32,745 nt of DNA from Phormidium sp. FACHB-1136 (GTDB lineage: Bacteria > Cyanobacteriota > Cyanobacteriia > Phormidesmidales > Phormidesmidaceae). Below are positions 5,151 through 32,608 of this stretch, piece after piece. Each line of letters starts with the position of its first letter. Position 1 is the stretch's first letter. Under the pieces are notes generated by a model that worked only from the letters and a program-made list of their open reading frames with translations, had not been told where the DNA came from and made no database searches. Position numbers and translations under genes: made by a program. The stretch spans positions 1 to 32,745 of the forward strand of contig NZ_JACJRS010000060.1 of assembly GCF_014697375.1 (NCBI RefSeq), written 5' to 3'.

Positions 5151-5972
5151 CTACTTCTTTTTCTTTTTCTTGGCGGTACCCGATGCACTGGACTCTGGTT
5201 TAGCCTCGGCTTCTTCTACTGACACCGTAACATTGCCGACTCGAATAACGGCCGAGACACCGGACTCTGGTTTAGCCTCGGCTTCGGCGGGGGATTCCTC
5301 GTCGGGAGTAGGATTATTCCGGCCAGCTTGGGCGGCCACTTCAGCGGCAAAGTCAACCTCTTGCTTCTCGATGCCTTCGCCCAGCACAAAGCGCACAAAG
5401 CGACGCACCTGAATGTTCTCGCCCAGTTGAGAAATGGTTTGCTTCACTAACTCTTCAACGGAGATATTTTGATCTTTGATGTAGGGTTGATCCATCAAAG
5501 ACAACTCCTTCAGGCGCTTTTGAATACGGCCCTCTGCGATTTTCTCGCGCATGGCTTCGGGCTTGTTAGCCAGGTCATCGCGGCCCATTTCGATGGACTT
5601 TTCCTTGGCAATAATATCTGCCGGAATTTCATCCGACTTCACGTATTCCACATTGGGGCAGGCGGCGATTTGCATAGCAATGTCACGAACCAGGGCTTTG
5701 AACTCATCCCGACGGGCGACAAAGTCGGTTTCGCAGTTCACTTCTACGAGCACACCAATGCGATCCCCGGTGTGAATGTATTGACCAATAATGCCCTCGG
5801 CGGCTACTCGACCCTCTTTTTTAGAGGCCGAGGCGATGCCCTTTTGCCGTAGCCACTCAATGGATTTTTCGATGTCGCCATCGTTTTCCTTGAGGGCTTT
5901 TTTGCAGTCCATCATCCCTGCGCCGGTTTTATCGCGCAGGTCTTTCACAAGCTTCGCAGAAATTTCTGCCAT
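5151..5972 (-). CDS. tsf: Translation elongation factor Ts
   Basis: A 273-residue guanine-nucleotide exchange factor for EF-Tu in the cytosol. The N-terminal UBA-like module ([21 protein letters not shown]) and the core motif [13 protein letters not shown] are unmistakable. The conserved core ends near residue 218; after it comes a tail of about 55 residues, rich in Glu, Ala and Ser, ending in six lysines. Within the tail the peptide EAEAKPES occurs twice, encoded by identical 24-bp DNA repeats. It is the second gene of the rpsB-tsf transcript, 122 bp after rpsB. Confidence 0.97.
5190..5285. repeat. Pair of 24-bp direct repeats in the tsf tail
   Basis: The same 24 bases, beginning GGACTCTGGTTTAGCCTCGG, occur at 5190-5213 and 5262-5285, exactly 72 bp (24 codons) apart. 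They encode AEAKPES in frame. The DNA identity suggests a recent duplication of tail coding sequence. Confidence 0.85.
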
Positions 5973-20404: not shown

Positions 20405-21091
20405 CTAGGAGGACTCGCCGCCGAGGTAGGGCTGGAGGTCGCCCTGGAGACGATGGCGGGCGCGGGCAATGCGAGATTTGACGGTGCCGAGGGACACCCC
20501 GGTGATATCGGCGATGTCTTCGTAGGCCAAGCCCTGAATTTCCCGTAGCACAATGGCGGTACGGAAGACCTCTGGCAGGTCGGCAATGGCTTGGTGTAGG
20601 TGGGTGTAGAACTCTTTGGTCATCAAGGTGTCCACCGGGCCGGGATCGGTGGAGGGAACATCCCACTCGATGGATCCGTCCTCTAGGTTAAGGGGCGCAT
20701 CCAGGGATAGGGTGGTGCGGGTGCGCTTGCGACGGCGCAGTTCGTCGTAGAACAGATTGGTGGTGATGCGGCTCAGCCAACCCTTAAATTTGGCGGGTTC
20801 GTTGAGGCGGCGAATGTTGCGGTAAACCCGAATCCACACTTCCTGGGACAGATCGGCGCGGTCGGGCCAGTCGGGGGCGAGGTGGTAGAGTAACTTATCC
20901 ACATGGCCCTGGTAGCGACGCAGCAATTCGGCAAAGATGGCTCGGTCGGGGCGCAACCGTTGCTGACAGAGGGCTACCAGTTCTGAGTTGGTGAGATCGC
21001 TAGGGCAAGCCGACGGCTTAGAACCGCTGAGGTGGACAGACCAAGTAGAGAACATAGGATGACTCATTCCTTCTACAGTGACGCCGTTCAT
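20405..21091 (-). CDS. sigG: ECF-type RNA polymerase sigma factor, SigG-like
   Basis: A 228-residue group 4 sigma factor. Region 2 is seen in FAELLRRYQGHVDKLLYHLA and DLSQEVWIRVYRNIRRLN with the following GWLSRITTNLFYDELRRRKR. Region 4 is the helix-turn-helix IVLREIQGLAYEDIADITG with VSLGTVKSRIARARHRL. Likeness to Synechocystis SigG (slr1545) is my reading. The start is uncertain: ATGs at 21067 and 21055 are in frame, and AGAAGGA sits between 21091 and 21055, favouring a shorter protein. In Synechocystis an anti-sigma gene follows sigG, but here the next gene is the convergent hydrolase 13 bp away, so no anti-sigma partner is adjacent. Confidence 0.87.
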   Translation of the reverse strand: MNGVTVEGMSHPMFSTWSVHLSGSKPSACPSDLTNSELVALCQQRLRPDRAIFAELLRRYQGHVDKLLYHLAPDWPDRADLSQEVWIRVYRNIRRLNEPAKFKGWLSRITTNLFYDELRRRKRTRTTLSLDAPLNLEDGSIEWDVPSTDPGPVDTLMTKEFYTHLHQAIADLPEVFRTAIVLREIQGLAYEDIADITGVSLGTVKSRIARARHRLQGDLQPYLGGESS

Positions 21092-21755
21092 TCAGCGCCG
21101 TTAATAAACAGCAGAGATCGGTATAGACCCGTTGCAACAACGGCGATGGCTCCTCATGGGCCTCTGGCAGGCTTGTCCGTATTCTGCCTGGGGTTCTCGC
21201 CGCCCAGAACGTCCCTTGTGCCTGTGCTTGGGTTGGCACAAGGAAAGCCGTCAGCCAGCCCTAGCCAACTCTGGCCAGATGGTGGCGGAGTTCGGTGTTT
21301 AGACCTGTCCGGTGACGGTTGCCGTCGTTAGGTTGTTGTGACAGCCCACGGTTGTTCAGGCGATTGTTAAGGATTGATGAGTTATCGAAACGGGGTTCTG
21401 ACACTTTGGCTACGGTTTCTCCGACGACAGCGAGGGGCATCGTCCGGTGAAGCGATCCTTTGAGTACAAATCCTGGGGGTTTTGCCACATCCCTAGAATG
21501 GGGGCGCGGCCTTGGGGGTTGGGGGTTTGCCCTGAGTGCAGAATACTTGGCCCTAGGGGTAAAAATCCCCATTCCTAGGGGCCAAAATACCTGTCCCCTA
21601 GGCTATGCAGAACTTCAAAGACTGGGTAGGCCGTCGCTTGCGGGACTGAGTACCGGACTAATTATTTTAGTGAATTTGGATGGGGCAATCCCAAAATCGT
21701 GGCCTTTGGGGCGTTGCTATAAGCAGAGAAACCCACGCCGAGCCAGCCCAGCGCC
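21092..21755. other. Long control region between sigG and nifP
   Basis: A 664-bp divergent spacer with no gene I can support. It holds the TTGAGTACAA box (21460-21469) and a stem of nine pairs, CCTTGTGCC/GGCACAAGG, at 21214-21243. A second, bulged stem, TTGGCCCTAG with CTAGGGGCCAA, lies at 21547-21585. TATAAG at 21718-21723 could be a -10 element for nifP, 33 bp before its ATG, without a good -35. The length suits activator-dependent nif control. Confidence 0.5.
21460..21469 (+). promoter_or_regulatory. Candidate CnfR-binding element upstream of nifP
   Basis: TTGAGTACAA is identical to the cis-element I recall being reported for CnfR-activated nif promoters (nifB, nifP) in Leptolyngbya boryana. 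Here it precedes nifP, 286 bp before the ATG, and a cnfR gene lies 3.6 kb downstream. The match is visible; binding is inference. Confidence 0.65.
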
Positions 21756-22478
21756 ATGTTTCTCCCCCTATCCCAGTCCTCCCGTCCGTCCCCACGGTCA
21801 AAGCCCAGTTCTCGCCTGCGTTTCTCCCTCCCGGAGGATGCCGCCATCATCTTTGAACGAGATCCCGCCGCGAAACATTGGCTGGAGGTGTTGTGCTGCT
21901 ACCCCGGTTTGCACGCCCTTCTGGCCCACCGTTTGGCTCACGGGTTGCATCGTTGGGGTCTGCCCTTTTTCCCTCGGTTCATCGCCTACCTCAGCCGCTT
22001 TTTTACAGGCATCGATATTCACCCCGGTGCACGCCTTGGCCGGGGGGTGTTTATTGATCATGGCATCGGCGTGGTGATTGGCGAAACGGCCATTGTGGGA
22101 GATTTTTGCCTGATCTACCAGGGCGTTACCCTGGGCGGCACGGGCAAGGAAAGCGGCAAACGCCATCCCACCGTGGGCAACCATGTGGTGCTGGGGGCGG
22201 GGGCCAAGGTGTTAGGCAATATTACCCTGGGCGACTATGCCCGCATTGGGGCAGGGGCGGTGGTGCTGCGTTCTGTCCCCGCCCACTGCACTGCCGTTGG
22301 GGTGCCCAGTCGCCTAGTGCGCCACTGCAATACCGAAACAGCCCCCCTAGACCATGGCCAATTGCCCGATGCCGACGCCCTCACCCTTCACACCCTGCTG
22401 GATCGCATCGAAGCCCTCGAAGCCCAGGTGCGCCACCTCCAACCCCGCCCCTCTACCCCACGGACGCTCGTGCCATGA
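21756..22478 (+). CDS. nifP: NifP, nif-linked serine O-acetyltransferase (CysE-like)
   Basis: A 240-residue serine acetyltransferase that makes O-acetylserine from serine and acetyl-CoA, the precursor of cysteine. The left-handed beta-helix part runs from about residue 85 ([19 protein letters not shown]) through [20 protein letters not shown] to [20 protein letters not shown]. Asp87 and His102 correspond to the catalytic Asp143/His158 of E. coli CysE, with the same 15-residue spacing. The protein is shorter at the N-terminus than enteric CysE. Its stop overlaps the nifV start (ATGA), so translation is coupled. That linkage makes it NifP, which boosts cysteine supply for NifS-dependent Fe-S cluster synthesis. 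A housekeeping cysE may exist elsewhere. Confidence 0.88.
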
Positions 22479-23584
22479 TTGACATCAACGACACCACCCT
22501 TCGCGATGGCGAACAGGCCGCTGGCGTGGCCTTTGGCCTGGAGGAAAAAGTAGCCATTGCCAAGTTCCTCGATGCCATTGGTGTGCAGGAGCTAGAGGTG
22601 GGCATTCCTGCCATGGGCCAAGAGGAGGCCAAGGCCATTCGCACCATTGTCGATCTGGGCCTTAATGCTCACCTGCTGGGCTGGAATCGAGCCGTCCTGT
22701 CGGATATTCAAGCCTCGATCCACTGCGGCCTCAAGCGCGTTCATATTTCCATCCCGGTATCTGAGATTCAGATTCAGGTGAAGTTTCAGGGCCGCTGGCG
22801 AGCCATGCTAGAGCAGTTGCGCGACGCCATCACCTTTGCCCGCGACCATGGCCTAGCGGTGAGCCTTGGTGGGGAAGACGGATCTCGCGCCGATGAAAGC
22901 TTTTTGCTGGATGTGGCCCAGTATGCCCAGGAGTGGGGGGCGTTTCGGTTCCGCTTTTGCGATACTGTCGGCATCCTCGACCCCTTCACCACCCACGACA
23001 AAGTGGCCAAACTGGTGGCCGCCCTGACGATTCCGGTGGAAATGCACACCCACAACGATCTCGGTCTGGCCACCGCCAATGCCCTGGCCGGGGTGCGGGC
23101 CGGGGCCACCTCGGTGAACACCACCGTCAACGGTCTCGGCGAACGAGCAGGAAACGCCGCCCTAGAGGAAGTGGTGATGGCCATGAAGCACCTCTACGGC
23201 CTCAAAACGGGCCTCAAAACCCAGCATTTTCTGGAACTCTCCCGGTTGGTGGCCAAAACCGTCAACTGTGCCGTCCCCCCCTGGAAGGCCATCGTGGGCG
23301 ATAACACCTTTGCCCATGAAGCGGGCATCCACGCCCACGGCGTGATGCAAAACCCCAGCACCTACGAACCCTTTGACCCCCAGGAAGTCGGTCGCCAGCG
23401 CAGTTTGGTGATCGGCAAACATTCCGGTCGCCACCTGATTGAGCAAGTCCTGTCTACCCAGGGCGTCCACCTTGATCACGAAAACAGCCAGTCCGTGCTG
23501 GATGAAGTTCGCCATCGCGCCGTAGCCCTCAAACGTAGCCTCACCGTTGATGAACTCCTCAGGGTTGCCGCTGGTCAAGGTTAG
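22475..23584 (+). CDS. nifV: Homocitrate synthase NifV
   Basis: A 369-residue enzyme that condenses acetyl-CoA with 2-oxoglutarate to homocitrate, the organic ligand of the nitrogenase FeMo cofactor. It starts [20 protein letters not shown], with Arg10 and Asp11 in the active site. The segment [15 protein letters not shown] follows, and the metal ligands His191 and His193 lie in [16 protein letters not shown]. The length and the GIPAMG motif separate it from 2-isopropylmalate synthase, which is longer and has a regulatory domain absent here. The ATG at 22475 overlaps the nifP stop by four bases and has no ribosome binding site of its own. Confidence 0.94.
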
Positions 23585-23607
23585 ATCGGCCTAGGCCATG
23601 CCTGGAG

Positions 23608-23639
23608 GATCCCCCCTGCCCCCTTGGAAAGGGGGATCT
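23608..23639 (-). repeat. Dispersed palindromic repeat, family B, between nifV and nifT
   Basis: GATCCCCCCTGCCCCCTTGG followed by AAAGGGGGATC, the reverse complement of the copy at 9716-9747. It occupies the place where nifZ is usually found. Confidence 0.65.
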
Positions 23640-23670
23640 GAAGCCGCCACTTCCCACTTCCCCCTGAATT

Positions 23671-23705
23671 ATCCCGACTCCCGACTCCCGACTCCCGACT
23701 CCCGC
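23671..23705 (+). repeat. Heptanucleotide tandem repeat (GACTCCC)n before nifT
   Basis: GACTCCC is repeated four to five times in a row, then decays into CTTCCC, ATTCCCT and CTCCCTCCCCT up to the nifT start at 23733. This is a short tandemly repeated repetitive (STRR-like) sequence of the sort known in filamentous cyanobacteria. It leaves nifT without a Shine-Dalgarno sequence. Confidence 0.8.
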
Positions 23706-23732
23706 TTCCCAATTCCCTACTCTCCCTCCCCT

Positions 23733-23936
23733 ATGAAAGTCATGCTTCGCACCAATGCCGCTGGCCATCTCCTGGTTTATGTGGCCAAGAAAGATCTCGA
23801 AGAAGAGGTGGTTTCCCAAACCCAGGGAGACAATGCCCACATCCTCACCCTGGCGAATGGCTGGAAGCTAGAGGTAAAGGGACTGGGTGACCCGATTTCA
23901 ATGCCCCGAACCGTGGATGCCCGCAAGCTGAACTGA
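23733..23936 (+). CDS. nifT: NifT/FixU family protein
   Basis: A 67-residue protein with the NifT signature: MKVMLRTNAAGHLLVYVAKK, DLEEEVVSQTQ, LTLANGWKLEV and the ending MPRTVDARKLN. NifT occurs in most nif clusters; its exact role is unclear and mutants often have little phenotype. In heterocystous and Leptolyngbya-type clusters it follows nifV and nifZ; here nifZ is missing and repeat DNA fills the 148-bp gap. The ATG at 23733 begins the conserved part; the frame upstream is repeat-derived. Confidence 0.87.
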   Translation: MKVMLRTNAAGHLLVYVAKKDLEEEVVSQTQGDNAHILTLANGWKLEVKGLGDPISMPRTVDARKLN

Positions 23937-24035: not shown

Positions 24036-24719
24036 ATGGCCGCAACCACGCTCCCCCCCTGGATGTTCAACCTCGATGGCACCTTTCTCGGCTTTGTGGG
24101 CGATGACCCCGCTAAGGCTAAGGCCATTTATTTAGACGTGGAGGGCGAATGGCTAACCATCAAACTGCCCAAGGAGGTGCGAACGGTGCTGAGATCACGG
24201 CTACAACCGGGCGACTACCTGCGCTGCATTGGCCGTACCGAATTCGATGGCAGCACGATTAAACTCAAGGCCCACCAGGTGTTTGTGTTGCTTCCCCCTC
24301 GGCCCACACCATGCCCTCACCCCCCTCACCCTACGACGGATCTCTCACCCTCCGTGATCTCGTCTTCTGGGAAAAACTCGTCTTCTGCGGCACCCTCCGC
24401 TGGTCTCTCCGCTAGCCATCCCTCCCAGCGGCCCAATTCGCACCCCGCCGCCCATGCCATCAAAATCCAGGTCTGCCGCAAATCCGGTTGCCAAAGGCGA
24501 GGAGGCCGCCAGTTGGTTGAGGCGCTCAAACAGGCACTACGAGACCGTAATCTCCACTCCCAGGTGGAAATTCAATACACGGGATGCCAAAGCCACTGTT
24601 CCAAGGCTCCTACCTTCACCGTGATGCCGGGGGGACACCGCTACAGTCGGGTCAAACTATCGCGTCTGTCGGGGGTGCTTGATCGCCACTTTGCTCCGGC
24701 CAAGCCCGTTCCTCTCTAG
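24036..24719 (+). CDS. Thioredoxin-like [2Fe-2S] ferredoxin with an extra N-terminal domain
   Basis: A 227-residue protein in three parts. Residues 8-86 form a compact strand-rich domain (FNLDGTFLGFVGDDPAKAKA, YLDVEGEWLTIKLPKEVR, LQPGDYLRCIGRTEFDG) that could be OB-like; I know no function for it. Residues 87-140 are a Pro/Ser/His-rich linker. Residues 141-227 are a thioredoxin-like [2Fe-2S] ferredoxin with the four ligands Cys147, Cys152, Cys184 and Cys188 (VCRKSGC and YTGCQSHCSK). It probably carries electrons or stores a cluster in the cytosol. AAGGAGAGA before the ATG is a strong ribosome binding site. Lying between nifT and cnfR it may serve nitrogen fixation, but related proteins may occur in non-diazotrophs. 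Confidence 0.8.
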   Translation: MAATTLPPWMFNLDGTFLGFVGDDPAKAKAIYLDVEGEWLTIKLPKEVRTVLRSRLQPGDYLRCIGRTEFDGSTIKLKAHQVFVLLPPRPTPCPHPPHPTTDLSPSVISSSGKNSSSAAPSAGLSASHPSQRPNSHPAAHAIKIQVCRKSGCQRRGGRQLVEALKQALRDRNLHSQVEIQYTGCQSHCSKAPTFTVMPGGHRYSRVKLSRLSGVLDRHFAPAKPVPL

Positions 24720-25036
24720 CCGTCATGCACGGGGCAAGGGCGGGGGGAGCGGTGGCAGGGGCATCGTCGGCTAGGCCGAAGGAGATGTAAAGCAATGTTT
24801 CGCAAAGATGTTGTTTATTTACGAAGAAGCGCGGTTTAAAGACAAGGTCATCAATCTCTCATATTTGGCCTCAAAATGTCGTTGTTATCATTACTTAATT
24901 TATGCTCAAAACGTCCATTCTGAACGCATTTTTGGCAATAAGAAAGAGATCATTAAATCGTATCCGTCAGCATAAAAACTGGTGATTTAGGTTGTTATCC
25001 CTAGGAGGGTGAATCACTGGCGAAAGGGGGTACTCA
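24720..25036 (+). promoter_or_regulatory. Control region of cnfR
   Basis: A 317-bp gap whose part from 24790 to 24990 is markedly AT-rich compared with its neighbours and has no coding frame. It probably carries the cnfR promoter. No NtcA site (GTAN8TAC) could be found. The plus strand reads GGGTACTCAATGG across the cnfR start codon, whose complement TTGAGTACCC matches eight of ten bases of the presumed CnfR box. AAAGGGGG is the ribosome binding site. Confidence 0.5.
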
Positions 25037-26638
25037 ATGGTCTACACCGTTAAGGAAGGCTGCACGGCCTGCGATAGCTGTCAACCAGAATGTCCCACCG
25101 GGGCCATTAAGGTGCAGCCCGATGGCGAGGGTTACTGGATTGATCCCACCCTGTGCAATAGCTGCGAGGACATCGATGTGCCCCGCTGTGTCGATGTCTG
25201 CGTCACCGGGGCACTGGCTCCCCTCCAGCCCAAAAAAGGCCGCAACAAAAGTACCCTGCTGCCCGTCGCCATTCCAAATATTTTTCTCAATGGGAAAACC
25301 ACACCCTTTGCCTCCTGCATGGTGGTGTGGGAAGCCTGCAATGTGTTAGCCCAGCGTCAGTCCTTGCCCTGGCATGCCGATGATCAGGGCCGCTTGCGTT
25401 ATTGCCACACCATCCACCGGGGCCGAGGGGAACTACGGTTTCGCCTTGCCGCCGATCCAGAGGATCCCAACCCCAGCGCCACGGCCTATGATGCCGGGAT
25501 GGAGGCTCTGACCCAGTTTGATCTACGGGCCACCTGTCTACACCTGATTTTTGCCGCCCAGGCGACCACCGATGATCGCCCCTGGGAACAGCCTTTTGTG
25601 CTCAACGACCAGCACCTTGAACAATACCTAGGGTTGCACCGCCGCAAAGACCTGACCAAGCTGGAACGGCTGAAGCTCATCAAAACCCTCGTCTTTCAGG
25701 CTTGTCAGGTGTTGGTCTCCCTCGACTGGCCACGCCAGGGCAAGGTGCAGGGCTTTAGCCTGGAGGAACATGCCATCTGGCAACTCCTGCATACCCAGTA
25801 CTACTTTGAGACTGATACCGAGGGATGCCAACACCTGATTGGGCTGAGTTTCACCCTCCAGGCTGGAGCTTGGGCCAAGCACTTTCTCAATCGACAAGAC
25901 TACGGCAAGCAGACCGCCTTTTATCAGTACGGCACCCTACCCTGGCTGCTGCTGACCGGGGTGATGGCCAGTTGGCAACAGCACGAGGGGGCCATGCGTC
26001 TATTGCTGTGGCTGGTGTTTAAGCTGCGCCTAGGCAGCGACCACCGCATGACCGTGCGCACCCTATTGCGGATTGCCTACGGCGAAGATCGGCTGCGGGA
26101 AGCGATGACCGTGCGCGGTGCCCACAAGCGCCTACTCAAAACCTTTGAGAACGACCTAGAAACCCTCTACCACCACGGTCTTAAACCCCAGTTTGACCCC
26201 GATACTTATCCCCCAGAAATCCAGCCCCTATGGGCCAGGGTGGCGGAGATTCCTGACGATGCCGACGATGCCCTCGACTTTTGGGCCGACGACGCCCATC
26301 GTCCCCTCAGCCTGACGGATCGCGCCCCCCGCGATAAAGGGCAACGGCTGCTGAATGCCCGTCTGCTGGGGTTTGATCTATCCGAGGACTGGCAGCAGAG
26401 TGTTGGCAAAACCCGGCCCAAACGACGGCGATCTGCGAAATCTACCCCCACCGCCCCCCCCACCGCCCTGTCCGGCGATGCGATCAAGGCCGCCCGCCAG
26501 CGCCAAAACCTGAGTCAGCGGGCCTTGGCCCAGCGTCTCGGCAAAAGCCAAAGCTGGATTCGGGATGTGGAAAATGGACGCTTTAGCGTCGGGGCAGGGG
26601 ATCTCACCCAACTGCAAACGGTGCTGGGGCTGGGCTAA
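25037..26638 (+). CDS. cnfR: CnfR (PatB-like) nif transcriptional activator, ferredoxin-HTH fusion
   Basis: A 533-residue regulator. The N-terminus is a bacterial-type ferredoxin module with two cluster-binding sets: Cys9, Cys12, Cys15, Cys19 (CTACDSCQPEC) and Cys40, Cys43, Cys51, Cys55 (CNSCEDIDVPRCVDVC). A long middle region (about 75-455) has no other family I can name. A basic, Pro/Thr-rich linker leads to a C-terminal XRE-type helix-turn-helix at about 479-533 (KAARQRQNLSQRALAQRLGK, SQSWIRDVENGRF). This architecture and length match CnfR of Leptolyngbya and PatB of Anabaena, the activator of nif genes under low oxygen; the Fe-S clusters are thought to sense oxygen. It lies downstream of nifPVT in the same direction with its own control region. 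Confidence 0.92.
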   Translation: MVYTVKEGCTACDSCQPECPTGAIKVQPDGEGYWIDPTLCNSCEDIDVPRCVDVCVTGALAPLQPKKGRNKSTLLPVAIPNIFLNGKTTPFASCMVVWEACNVLAQRQSLPWHADDQGRLRYCHTIHRGRGELRFRLAADPEDPNPSATAYDAGMEALTQFDLRATCLHLIFAAQATTDDRPWEQPFVLNDQHLEQYLGLHRRKDLTKLERLKLIKTLVFQACQVLVSLDWPRQGKVQGFSLEEHAIWQLLHTQYYFETDTEGCQHLIGLSFTLQAGAWAKHFLNRQDYGKQTAFYQYGTLPWLLLTGVMASWQQHEGAMRLLLWLVFKLRLGSDHRMTVRTLLRIAYGEDRLREAMTVRGAHKRLLKTFENDLETLYHHGLKPQFDPDTYPPEIQPLWARVAEIPDDADDALDFWADDAHRPLSLTDRAPRDKGQRLLNARLLGFDLSEDWQQSVGKTRPKRRRSAKSTPTAPPTALSGDAIKAARQRQNLSQRALAQRLGKSQSWIRDVENGRFSVGAGDLTQLQTVLGLG

Positions 26639-28335: not shown

Positions 28336-31143
28336 ATGAAAAACGAAAAGCAGACACGCCTTGATCTGATTGATGGCCTTTTGGCCCAAGCGGGTTGGAA
28401 TATCCACGATCCGACCCAGGTGGTGGAGGAATTTGAGATTGCAACCTCGCCCTCTGGTCGGGCGGCGGAACCTGGAGCCGCCTACAACGGCCATCAGTTT
28501 AGCGACTATGTGCTGCTGGGCAAGGATGGCAAACCCTTGGCCGTGGTGGAGGCCAAAAAATCGAGCCGGGATGCCGCCATTGGCCGGGAGCAAGCCAAGC
28601 AGTATTGCTACAACATTCAGCGGCAACTCGGTGGAGAACTACCCTTTTGCTTTTATACCAACGGCCACGATATTTACTTTTGGGATTTGGACAACTACCC
28701 GCCTCGCCAGGTCGTGGGGTTTCCTACCCGTGATGATTTGGAGCGGTTTCAATACATCCGCCGCCACAAAAAGCCCCTCACCCAGGAACTCATCAACACC
28801 GACATTGCGGGCCGCGATTACCAAATTCGTGCCATTCGCACGGTGTTGGAGGGGATTGACCAGAAAAAGCGCGATTTTCTGCTGGTGATGGCGACGGGCA
28901 CCGGAAAGACACGCACCTGCATTGCCCTGGTGGATGCCTTGATGCGGGCGGGCCATGCCGAAAAGGTGCTGTTTCTGGTGGATCGCATTGCGCTGCGAGA
29001 TCAGGCCCTAGAGGCGTTCAAGGAACATCTACCCCACGAACCTCGCTGGCCTAGTCAGGAGGAAAAGCGCATCGCCAAGGATCGACGCATCTATGTGGCC
29101 ACCTATCCCACCATGCTCAACATTATTCGGGATCAGGGACAGCCAATATCGCCCCATTTTTTCGATTTGATTGTGGTGGATGAAAGCCATCGCTCGATCT
29201 ACAACACCTATAAAGAGGTGCTGGATTACTTCAAAACCATTACCCTGGGGCTAACGGCCACCCCTACGGATATCCTTGACCACAATACGTTTCAGCTTTT
29301 TCATTGCGAAGATGGCCTGCCCACCTTTGCCTACACCTTTGAGGAAGCGGTGAACCATGAGCCGCCCTATCTGTGCAATTTTCAGGTGATGAAAATTCAG
29401 ACTAAGTTTCAGAACGAGGGCATCAGTAAGCGCACAATCTCCCTAGCGGATCAGAAAAAGCTGCTGCTGGAAGGGAAGGAGATCGAAGAGATCAATTTTG
29501 AAGGCACGGATCTAGAGAAAACCGTAACCAACAAGGGCACCAACGTCCTGATTGTGAAGGAATTTATGGAGGAATGCATCAAGGATGCTAACGGGGTCTT
29601 GCCCGGAAAGACGATCTTTTTCTGCTCCTCCAAAAAACATGCTCGGCGGATTGAGGAAGTTTTTGACCAGCTTTATCCCCAGTACAAGGGGGAACTGGCC
29701 AAGGTGTTGGTTTCCGATGACCCTCGCGTTTACGGCAAGAACGGGCTGCTGCATCAGTTTACCCACAACGATATGCCCCGTGTGGCGATTAGCGTGGATA
29801 TGCTGGATACGGGCGTTGATGTGAGAGAAATTGTCAATCTAGTATTTGCCAAGCCGATTTATTCCTATACCAAGTTTTGGCAAATGATTGGGCGCGGCAC
29901 CCGATTGCTAGAGAACCATAAACTCCAGCCCTGGTGTCTAGAAAAGAAAGGGTTCTTAATCCTAGATTGTTGGGACAATTTCGAGTATTTCAAGCTTCAG
30001 CCCCAAGGAAAAGAGCTTAAACCCCAGGTTCCCCTACCCGTGCAGGTGGTGGGGTTGCGCCTCAACAAAATTGAACAGGCCAGCGACCTAGGCCACCCTT
30101 CCATTGTGGAGCGGGAGGTGGCCAAGCTGCGCCAGCAGATCGCCGATCTGCCCCGTAGTTCTGTGGTCATTAAGGAAGCCGCCGCCACCTTGGCCCGATT
30201 GGAGGATGAGAATTTTTGGATCACCTTAGATCACGCCAAGCTGGAATTTCTACGGAATGCCATCAAACCGCTGTTTCGCACGGTGTCGGAGGTTGATTTT
30301 AAGGCCATGCGCTTTGAGCGGGATGTGTTGGACTATGCCCTCGCCCACCTGGGCCAGGAAACGGGTAAGGCCGAAGCGTTGCGGGATGGCCTGGTGGAAC
30401 AAATTAGTGAACTGCCACTGACGGTCAATTTTGTCCAGGAAGAAGAGGCGCTAATTCGCGAGGCCCAAACCAACCGCTACTGGGTTCGGGCCGATGAAAA
30501 CGAGCTAGACCTGGCCCTCGACAATCTCTGTACCCGCCTGGGCGGCCTGATGCGGTTCCGCGAACCGAGGATCAACCCCGGCCCGGTGGAGCTGGATTTG
30601 GTGGATGCCCTGCACCATAAGGACTGGGTGGAGTTTGGCCCCCAGCACGAATCGGTGTCGATCAGCCGCTATCGGGAGATGGTGGAGGCGTTGATTGCTG
30701 AGCTAACGGAGCACAACCCGGTGCTGATCAAGATCAAAAGCGGAGAGGCCATTACCCCAGCGGAGGCCCAGGATTTGGCCAATCTGCTCCACGCCGAGCA
30801 CCCCCACATTACCGAAGACCTGCTGCGCCAGGTCTACCAAAACCGCAGGGCGCAGTTCCTCCAGTTCATTCGCCACATTCTGGGCATCGAAATCCTCAAA
30901 AGCTTTCCAGACACCGTCAGCGAGGCCTTTGACCAGTTCCTTCAGCAGCACAACACCCTCAACAGCCGCCAACTGGAGTTCCTCGACCTGCTGAGGACGT
31001 TCATCATCGAGCGGGAGCGGGTGGAAAAGAAAGACCTGATCAGCGCTCCGTTTACGGTGATCCATCCCCAGGGCATTCGCGGCGTGTTTACCCCCAGGGA
31101 GATTACCGAAATCCTCCAGCTTACGGAACGGCTGGCCGCTTGA
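28336..31143 (+). CDS. hsdR: Type I restriction enzyme, R subunit
   Basis: A 935-residue restriction subunit that translocates and cuts DNA as part of an R2M2S complex. The N-terminal PD-(D/E)XK nuclease has Asp57 (FSDYVLLG) and Glu72/Lys74 (VVEAKKSS). The SF2 motor follows: Walker A MATGTGKTRT (185-194), the DESH box at 282-285, LGLTATP near 295 and MIGRGTRLL near 516. The C-terminal part (about 760-935) resembles the EcoEI R C-terminal domain that binds the methylase. The gene is intact. hsdM follows after a 208-bp gap containing a dispersed repeat; hsdS is not in the window. Confidence 0.94.
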   Translation: MKNEKQTRLDLIDGLLAQAGWNIHDPTQVVEEFEIATSPSGRAAEPGAAYNGHQFSDYVLLGKDGKPLAVVEAKKSSRDAAIGREQAKQYCYNIQRQLGGELPFCFYTNGHDIYFWDLDNYPPRQVVGFPTRDDLERFQYIRRHKKPLTQELINTDIAGRDYQIRAIRTVLEGIDQKKRDFLLVMATGTGKTRTCIALVDALMRAGHAEKVLFLVDRIALRDQALEAFKEHLPHEPRWPSQEEKRIAKDRRIYVATYPTMLNIIRDQGQPISPHFFDLIVVDESHRSIYNTYKEVLDYFKTITLGLTATPTDILDHNTFQLFHCEDGLPTFAYTFEEAVNHEPPYLCNFQVMKIQTKFQNEGISKRTISLADQKKLLLEGKEIEEINFEGTDLEKTVTNKGTNVLIVKEFMEECIKDANGVLPGKTIFFCSSKKHARRIEEVFDQLYPQYKGELAKVLVSDDPRVYGKNGLLHQFTHNDMPRVAISVDMLDTGVDVREIVNLVFAKPIYSYTKFWQMIGRGTRLLENHKLQPWCLEKKGFLILDCWDNFEYFKLQPQGKELKPQVPLPVQVVGLRLNKIEQASDLGHPSIVEREVAKLRQQIADLPRSSVVIKEAAATLARLEDENFWITLDHAKLEFLRNAIKPLFRTVSEVDFKAMRFERDVLDYALAHLGQETGKAEALRDGLVEQISELPLTVNFVQEEEALIREAQTNRYWVRADENELDLALDNLCTRLGGLMRFREPRINPGPVELDLVDALHHKDWVEFGPQHESVSISRYREMVEALIAELTEHNPVLIKIKSGEAITPAEAQDLANLLHAEHPHITEDLLRQVYQNRRAQFLQFIRHILGIEILKSFPDTVSEAFDQFLQQHNTLNSRQLEFLDLLRTFIIERERVEKKDLISAPFTVIHPQGIRGVFTPREITEILQLTERLAA

Positions 31144-31351: not shown

Positions 31352-32608
31352 ATGCTACAAAACAACCCTGAACTCAAAAGCGAAATCGACCAGCTTTGGA
31401 ATAAGTTTTGGTCGGGCGGCATTTCCAACCCGTTGACGGCCATCGAGCAGATCACCTACCTGCTGTTCATGAAGCGGATTGATGAGGTCGATCAAAAGAA
31501 GCAGGCCGATGCGGAATGGACGGGGGAGCCCTACACCTCCAAGTTTGCGGGCACCTGGATTCCGCCGGAATATCGCCAGCAGGACAACCCCGACCAATAC
31601 GCCATCGACAAGCAATCCCTGCGCTGGAGCGAGTTTAGCCGAATGCCCGCCGAGGCGATGCTGAGCCATGTGCAGAGTCGGGTGTTTCCGTTTTTGAAGG
31701 ATTTGACCGGGGCCGAATCGAACTTTGCCCAGCACATGAAGAATGCGGTGTTTATCATCCCCAAGCCCAGCCTGCTGGTGGAGGCGGTGAAGACCATCGA
31801 CCACATTTTCGAGATCATGGATCGCGATTCCCAGGAGAAGGGCCAAGCGTTTCAGGATATTCAGGGCGATGTGTACGAAATGCTGCTGTCGGAGATTGCC
31901 ACCGCCGGAAAAAATGGCCAGTTTCGCACGCCGCGCCACATCATTAAGCTAATGGCCGAACTGGTGCAGCCCCAACTGGGCCACCGCATTGCCGACCCGG
32001 CCTGTGGTTCGGGGGGCTTTTTGCTGGGGGCCTATCAATACATCGTCACCCAGCTTGCCATTCGGGCCGGAACCAAGGATTTGCCCCCCGATGAAGACGG
32101 CTTTGTCCGTACCTCGGTGGCGGCGGCCCTGACCGAAAAGGCCCAAACCATCCTGCAACACTCCCTCTATGGCTACGACATCGACGGCACCATGGTACGC
32201 CTGGGCCTGATGAACCTGATGATGCACGGCATCGATGACCCCCACATCGACTACCAAGACACCCTCAGCAAAGGCTACAACGAAGCCGCCGCCTACGACA
32301 TCATCATGGCCAATCCGCCGTTTACGGGCAGCATCGACAAGGGCGACATCAACGAAACCCTCAGCCTCGCCACCACCAAGACGGAATTGCTGTTTGTCGA
32401 AAATATCTATCGCCTCCTAAAAACCGGGGGAACGGCCTGTGTAATTGTGCCGCAGGGGGTGTTGTTTGGCTCTGGCAAGGCGTTTAAACAACTCCGCCAA
32501 ACTCTGGTAGATCGCTGCGATCTGAAGGCGGTGATTACCATGCCCAGCGGCGTATTTAAGCCCTATGCCGGAGTTATTGCAGCCCGGAGACTGATTAGGA
32601 CAGAATAG
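31352..32608 (+). pseudogene. hsdM: Type I DNA methyltransferase subunit hsdM, 3' end lost to an insertion
   Basis: 418 codons are open. The N-terminal helical domain (ELKSEIDQLWNKFWSGGISN) and the catalytic domain are intact, with the SAM-binding motif DPACGSGG (215-222) and the N6-adenine motif NPPF (321-324). The protein is normal to MPSGVFKPYAGV (about 397-408). The family then continues STAIL... and roughly 80-100 more residues; here it reads IAARRLIRTE and stops. An IS630-type transposase starts 28 bp after that stop, so the last ten codons are probably transposon end sequence. The break falls where GTT-AGC (Val-Ser) would contain a TA target. Without its C-terminus the subunit may not assemble with HsdR and HsdS. 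Confidence 0.85.

Follow-up and report, generated by a model that had tools for sequence, protein, structure and literature searches.

A candidate CnfR-type three-box promoter upstream of nifP in Phormidium sp. FACHB-1136

The ten bases TTGAGTACAA upstream of nifP in Phormidium sp. FACHB-1136 raise the question of whether this gene is controlled by CnfR, whose cis-acting element at nifB and nifP of Leptolyngbya boryana was reportedly described by Tsujimoto in 2016. The DNA analysed, hereafter called the window, is a stretch of 32,745 nucleotides (positions 1 to 32,745 of contig NZ_JACJRS010000060.1, forward strand).

Predicted promoter elements upstream of nifP and nifB

The decamer TTGAGTACAA was verified at positions 21460-21469 of the plus strand, as was its single exact occurrence in the window. 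Dinucleotide shuffles of the window contained a mean of 0.04 exact copies, with at least one copy in 4 of 100 shuffles. The whole genome (5.98 Mb) has seven exact copies compared with three of a control pattern read backwards, so that the decamer alone carries little weight, and it was dropped as evidence by itself. Two of the seven copies precede nif genes, namely nifP and nifB (C219:5357-5366, minus strand). The remaining five are found on contigs C72, C98, C207, C245 and C254, each inside an open stretch of 151-536 codons (counted from stop to stop in loci of about 3 kb), and C207 also carries a weak match to the nifB family (E = 8.6e-8) at 18 kb from its decamer. The original prediction had named a decamer as frequent as chance as an argument against itself; this is nearly true of the decamer alone, but not of the whole element. 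The part that is not due to chance is the context: two further boxes share the spacings of those before nifB, and the extended -10 keeps its usual distance.

The entire CnfR-type element was detected at positions 21458-21677 of the plus strand (E = 1.6e-21, 78.6 bits) with R1, a sequence-only profile for which alignment A1 took 42 of 97 eligible elements; they came from 32 genomes, 2 of them of the same genus, and this genome supplied none. Within the R1 match, the decamer forms the CS1-like box 1, whose core TGAGTAC occupies 21461-21467. Box 2, CTGAGTGCAG (21532-21541, plus strand), is located 72 bp past box 1 with the core TGAGTGC at 21533-21539, and box 3, CTGAGTACCG (21646-21675, plus strand), is located 114 bp past box 2 with the core TGAGTAC at 21647-21653 and the conserved TAAT of this region at 21659-21662. 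Thus nifP is preceded by three TGAGTA-type boxes, of which box 2 reads TGAGTG, a G that 19% of box 2 copies share; both spacings fall within the range of relatives (70-75 bp, and 113-118 or 126-129 bp). Between boxes 2 and 3, A-tract/CCC repeats extend over 21561-21598 of the plus strand, and their units AAAAATCCCCATTCC (21561-21575) and AAAATACCTGTCCCC (21584-21598), when compared by eye with the alignment consensus, are counterparts of the conserved AAATACT-N-GT-N-CCC repeats. Downstream of box 3 there is an extended -10, TGCTATAAG (21715-21723, plus strand), in which TATAAG starts 71 bp after box 3 and represents the predicted -10 hexamer of nifP (21718-21723). The corresponding -35 position, at a 17-bp spacer, reads AATCGT, i.e., the extended -10 is not accompanied by a -35 hexamer, and the whole -10 region closely resembles its counterparts in relatives. 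The three boxes, their nifB-like spacings, the -10 and the R1 match bear out the proposal of a CnfR-type promoter at nifP. The decamer, which had been taken for the complete site, turned out to be box 1 of an element that stretches over about 260 bp as far as the -10.

Since the predicted -10 would place the transcription start of nifP near 21730, with a 5' untranslated region of about 26 nucleotides to the ATG at 21756, box 1 would be situated about 270 bp upstream of the start. The decamer is therefore probably outside the transcribed region, in the upstream region and not in a long nifP leader as had been supposed.

A matching element precedes nifB, which is located on another contig (C219, minus strand). 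Its three boxes, at 5551, 5479 and 5365, show identical spacings of 72 and 114 bp, and its extended -10 is found 69 bp after box 3; here TTGAGTACAA is box 3 instead of box 1. Within this genome, nifB (6.5e-29) and nifP were the two strong matches to R1, followed by a weak and partial third match (C228:49964-50081, E = 5.7e-4, model positions 43-173). A looser triple of TGAGT, discarded as a search pattern, occurred at 11 places in the genome versus 3 for the reversed control, 2 of the 11 being the nif sites. On C219 the genes are ordered nifB, nifS, nifU, nifH (nifS and nifU named by eye), and R1 detected no site in this genome directly before nifH, which sits behind the other three. Of the sites expected before nifB, nifP and nifH, those of nifB and nifP were thus present and that of nifH was absent from the R1 results. 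Since nifB has the best-scoring site of all, the switch is not restricted to accessory nif genes, contrary to what had been suggested.

The gene downstream of the element, nifP (21756-22478, plus strand), encodes a serine O-acetyltransferase (TIGR01172, 239.9 bits, over the cut-off). As the enzyme family is CysE, the name nifP rests on its place before nifV, and a second CysE-like gene is present on C157. It is followed on the same strand by nifV (22475-23584), encoding homocitrate synthase (TIGR02660, 527 bits, over the cut-off), whose start overlaps the nifP stop; by nifT (23598-23936; TIGR02934 / PF06988), whose start codon is uncertain, with the NifT domain beginning at about 23733; and by an open reading frame for a 2Fe-2S thioredoxin-like ferredoxin of 227 amino acids (24036-24719; PF01257). 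Divergent from nifP, on the minus strand, is a gene for an ECF-type sigma factor (20405-21091), a neighbour found at the window's locus only, among 30 nifP-search loci with flanks of up to 1.5 kb. The window also contains type I restriction genes, HsdR-like at 28336-31143 and HsdM-like at 31352-32608.

The element in other cyanobacterial genomes

In the same class, 126 other genomes had a NifB above the cut-off, and we retrieved nifB upstream regions from 120 of them (G003, G009, G022, G101, G111 and G314 were left out); five of the stretches were short (L040, L101, L108, L110 and L137). With the region of this genome included, box triples with a score of 19 or higher out of 21 were present in 101 of 121 regions, compared with none of 605 first-order resampled sequences, and at a threshold of 18 of 21 the figures were 103 of 121 and 3 of 605. 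Triples scoring at least 19 in both directions, 96 towards nifB and 45 opposite, constituted a set of 141 elements. In this set, boxes 1 and 2 were 71-74 bp apart in 138 of the 141 elements. The distances from box 2 to box 3 formed two classes that differ by roughly one helical turn, 113-118 bp (100 of 141) and 126-129 bp (40 of 141), and one odd element had spacings of 78 and 121 bp. In family f32, the nifB-directed elements had a box 2 to box 3 distance of 126-128 bp in 22 of 23 genomes, compared with 114 bp in the window, and none was found in the other genome. Exact TTGAGTACAA was present in 47 of the 141 elements, most commonly as box 3.

The alignment also revealed conservation beyond the boxes: AAATACT-GT-CCC repeats lie in the interval from box 2 to box 3, and box 3 is followed by TAAT and a stretch rich in A and T. 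All elements of sufficient length (137 of 137, the other 4 of the 141 being too short) had an extended -10, TGNTAT or TGNTAA, that began 68-72 bp past box 3, while control windows shifted by +10, +20, +30, -10 and -20 bp gave 3, 0, 0, 0 and 0 matches, respectively. This looser pattern was used instead of a first regular expression, TG.TA...T, which had no match.

When 388 genomes were searched with R1, counting a match anywhere in the genome, 137 were positive. Among the 127 genomes whose NifB exceeded the cut-off, 123 were positive (91 of 95 after subtraction of the 32 training genomes), compared with 14 of the 261 genomes without such a NifB, 5 of those 14 being weak. The NifB genomes in which R1 found no match were G022, G043, G275 and G314, and in G275 nifB is at a contig end. 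At least one triple was found at 27 of the 30 nifP-search loci, although in divergent cases it may belong to the neighbouring gene. A scan of IMG/VR with the element pattern gave 0 matches. Weak R1 matches were found in family f5 (about 1e-15 to 1e-18), where CnfR aligned over nearly its full length at 50-51%, as well as in family f16 and in the f23 members G232 and G278, which have small genomes. The CnfR relatives of f16, G232 and G278, among the matches listed, aligned at 36-42%, with the N-terminal part mostly missing. Element and N-terminally unmatched CnfR may possibly have drifted together in f16 and the two f23 genomes; a weak element and a divergent CnfR are not cleanly correlated, because f5 combines weak R1 matches with a CnfR of near full length.

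A scan of named genomes for triples with TAAT produced at least 113 stretches, from which 80 loci, all cyanobacterial by title, were listed and read for downstream genes, recognised with eight proteins of this genome. These 80 loci held 88 sites, each of which (88 of 88) had an extended -10 at 69-72 bp. The first recognised gene was nifB at 40 sites, nifP at 22 and nifV at 2, and at 24 sites none was recognised, at 4 of them through lack of sequence. Three small genes were located behind 19 of the other 20, and a nifE-like gene (by eye) behind one.

The cnfR gene and its probable separate promoter region

As the original prediction had stated, a clear cnfR gene (25037-26638, plus strand) lies near the site, with its start 3.3 kb downstream of the nifP start. 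Its product, of 533 residues, has two N-terminal 4Fe-4S cysteine motifs (C9-C12-C15-C19 and C40-C43-C51-C55), where Fer4 domains were found, yet below the Pfam gathering score, and a C-terminal XRE helix-turn-helix at 480-532 (PF13560 and PF01381, over the cut-off). The same layout of 4Fe-4S motifs and an XRE domain is described for CnfR in PMC8510180. A search of this genome for CnfR gave a single match at 1e-40. Relatives were found in 161 genomes, a figure that includes weaker relatives in genomes without nifB. In this genome cnfR occurs together with nif genes and the element; for the class as a whole, this was a comparison of lists by eye.

The gap of 317 bp before cnfR contains no three-box element. 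It holds a conserved promoter region of another type, devoid of three TGAGTAC boxes, at 24886-25014 of the plus strand, which matched a second profile, R2, with E = 4.3e-26, the one match in this genome at E <= 0.01. On these grounds cnfR appears to own a separate promoter, and the proposal of a self-contained switch becomes doubtful. R2 was built from 14 of 20 cnfR upstream stretches (that of this genome excluded), the 6 others being dropped since a regular expression did not fit them. It matched 12 of the 28 genomes searched, once per genome in 11 of the 12; several of the searched genomes had supplied training sequences, and G000, G338, G264 and G005 had not. The block is not universal, because G004, G006 and G007 have a CnfR match and no R2 match. 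In relatives, the block has the form GTCCA..CTGAAC ... TTAAACCGTATC ... CATAAAA ... GTTGTTATCCCTA. A GTACTCA half-box (25030-25036) that directly adjoins the cnfR start codon was weighed as a candidate for autoregulation and rejected, as 0 of 20 relatives have it at this place.

Proposed activation by CnfR and alternative readings

We consider it very probable, at roughly 0.92, that the nifP promoter has three boxes to which CnfR binds, the decamer being the first, that CnfR thereby drives nifP, nifV, nifT and the ferredoxin open reading frame, and that the nifB copy works likewise. The boxes, their spacings, the -10, the genes, their conservation and the presence of only two strong sites in the genome are directly observed. 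From them we infer CnfR binding, control by and sensing of oxygen, DNA bending and the extent of the operon. CnfR with intact iron-sulfur clusters, which is thought to respond to low oxygen, would be produced from its gene downstream of nifP and would bind the three boxes, whose distances of 72 and 114 bp are near-whole helical turns and would place them on roughly the same helical face. It would then recruit RNA polymerase to the promoter, whose extended -10 lies 71 bp past box 3, so that the nifP element would drive nifP-nifV-nifT and the ferredoxin open reading frame, and the matching copy on the other contig would drive nifB-nifS-nifU-nifH. Control by low oxygen is not universal among these regulators, because CnfR1 of A. 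variabilis, according to PMC8510180, activated its promoters both in the presence and in the absence of oxygen when it was expressed in vegetative cells.

This switch clearly adds a new example to a known kind and does not constitute a new one, since three-motif regions and dependence on CnfR have been published for Anabaena variabilis and L. boryana. Three TGAGTATA motifs upstream of nifB1 and nifB2 of A. variabilis are described in PMC4284476, and the elements CS1-CS3 with an extended -10 lacking a -35 in PMC8510180; nifP of the window shares with both genes the three TGAGTA-type boxes upstream of such a -10. PMC8510180 places the three elements 300-600 bp upstream of start sites, compared with about 270 bp from box 1 to the predicted start here. 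In L. boryana the CnfR element is likewise upstream of nifB and nifP, with cnfR in the same cluster, and it is also a long multi-motif element, with motifs I-IX mentioned in PMC5943405, a likeness of layout. There, nifB and nifP are divergent genes on either side of a single intergenic region (PMC5943405), an arrangement also present in close relatives of this strain such as G329, G196, G298 and G264, whereas here each gene has its own copy of the element on a separate contig. The order nifV, nifT, orf217, cnfR of Thermoleptolyngbya sp. O-77, as given in PMC5745016, is like the order nifP, nifV, nifT, ferredoxin open reading frame, cnfR of the window, so that the ferredoxin gene takes the place of orf217 by gene order alone. 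The nif genes of that strain are described as one cluster, unlike the separate contigs of nifP-cnfR and nifB-nifH here.

It is extremely improbable that the decamer occurs here by chance and that some other element or factor drives nifP. Such a reading would account for the five exact genomic copies away from known nif genes and for the shuffled windows that also contained one, but not for two more boxes at nifB spacings, the conserved distance of the -10 and the R1 match (1.6e-21). Very unlikely, although somewhat less so, is binding of the boxes by another nif regulator, either a different XRE protein or NtcA, with CnfR acting indirectly. Binding of CnfR at nifP is what we infer here, and PMC8510180 speaks of the elements as sites where binding is "thought" to occur, both of which leave some room for another protein. 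Against this, no NtcA site of the form GTA-N8-TAC starts between 20900 and 25100 of the window, and PMC5943405 states that CnfR activates the nif genes of L. boryana from the nifB-nifP intergenic region, that this also works in Synechocystis 6803, and that motifs I-IX serve recognition by CnfR.

We also regard as doubtful, but clearly less remote than these two, that the nifP element in addition drives cnfR by read-through and so closes a positive feedback loop, which would be the self-contained switch in its strong form. The position of cnfR behind nifP on the same strand, repeated at about 3 to 6 kb in 12 relatives (by eye), would suit read-through, whereas the 317-bp gap with its own promoter region, conserved as R2 in 12 of 28 genomes, speaks for separate transcription, as does the statement in PMC5943405 that the L. 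boryana cluster genes depend on CnfR with the exception of cnfR itself.

Activation of nifP by CnfR through the three boxes, the reading that we favour, turns a match of one word into a complete, testable promoter and outlines the CnfR circuit of this genome as two strong sites, nifB and nifP. The geometry of three boxes and a -10, fixed across the class, lends itself to exact predictions for mutants with altered spacing and to a sharp listing of candidate CnfR targets in cyanobacteria, which is useful for transferring nitrogen fixation into other phototrophs.

A more specific extension of this reading is tentative, and we hold it as possible when its three parts are taken jointly: CnfR, the three boxes and the -10 might assemble into a rigid, phased complex in place of three activators that act independently, the A-tract/CCC repeats might bend the DNA that separates box 2 from box 3, and the three-gene operon might be an additional target. 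In such an assembly the boxes would be about 7 and 11 (or 12) turns apart, with the extended -10 locked 68-72 bp behind box 3. Descriptions of the helical phasing and of the three-gene operon were not met in the literature searched, and we do not claim novelty for either. The proteins of the operon have about 140, 93 and 103 amino acids (L205, L211, L219 and 16 more of L204-L283), and one representative of each gave no Pfam or NCBIfam match at E 0.01. The 19 listed loci belong to 18 Nostocales and to Plectonema radiosum NIES-515 (Oscillatoriales according to NCBI). Relatives of the 103-amino acid protein are also encoded near nifP or cnfR in some relatives of the window (L188-L191, L199 and L200).
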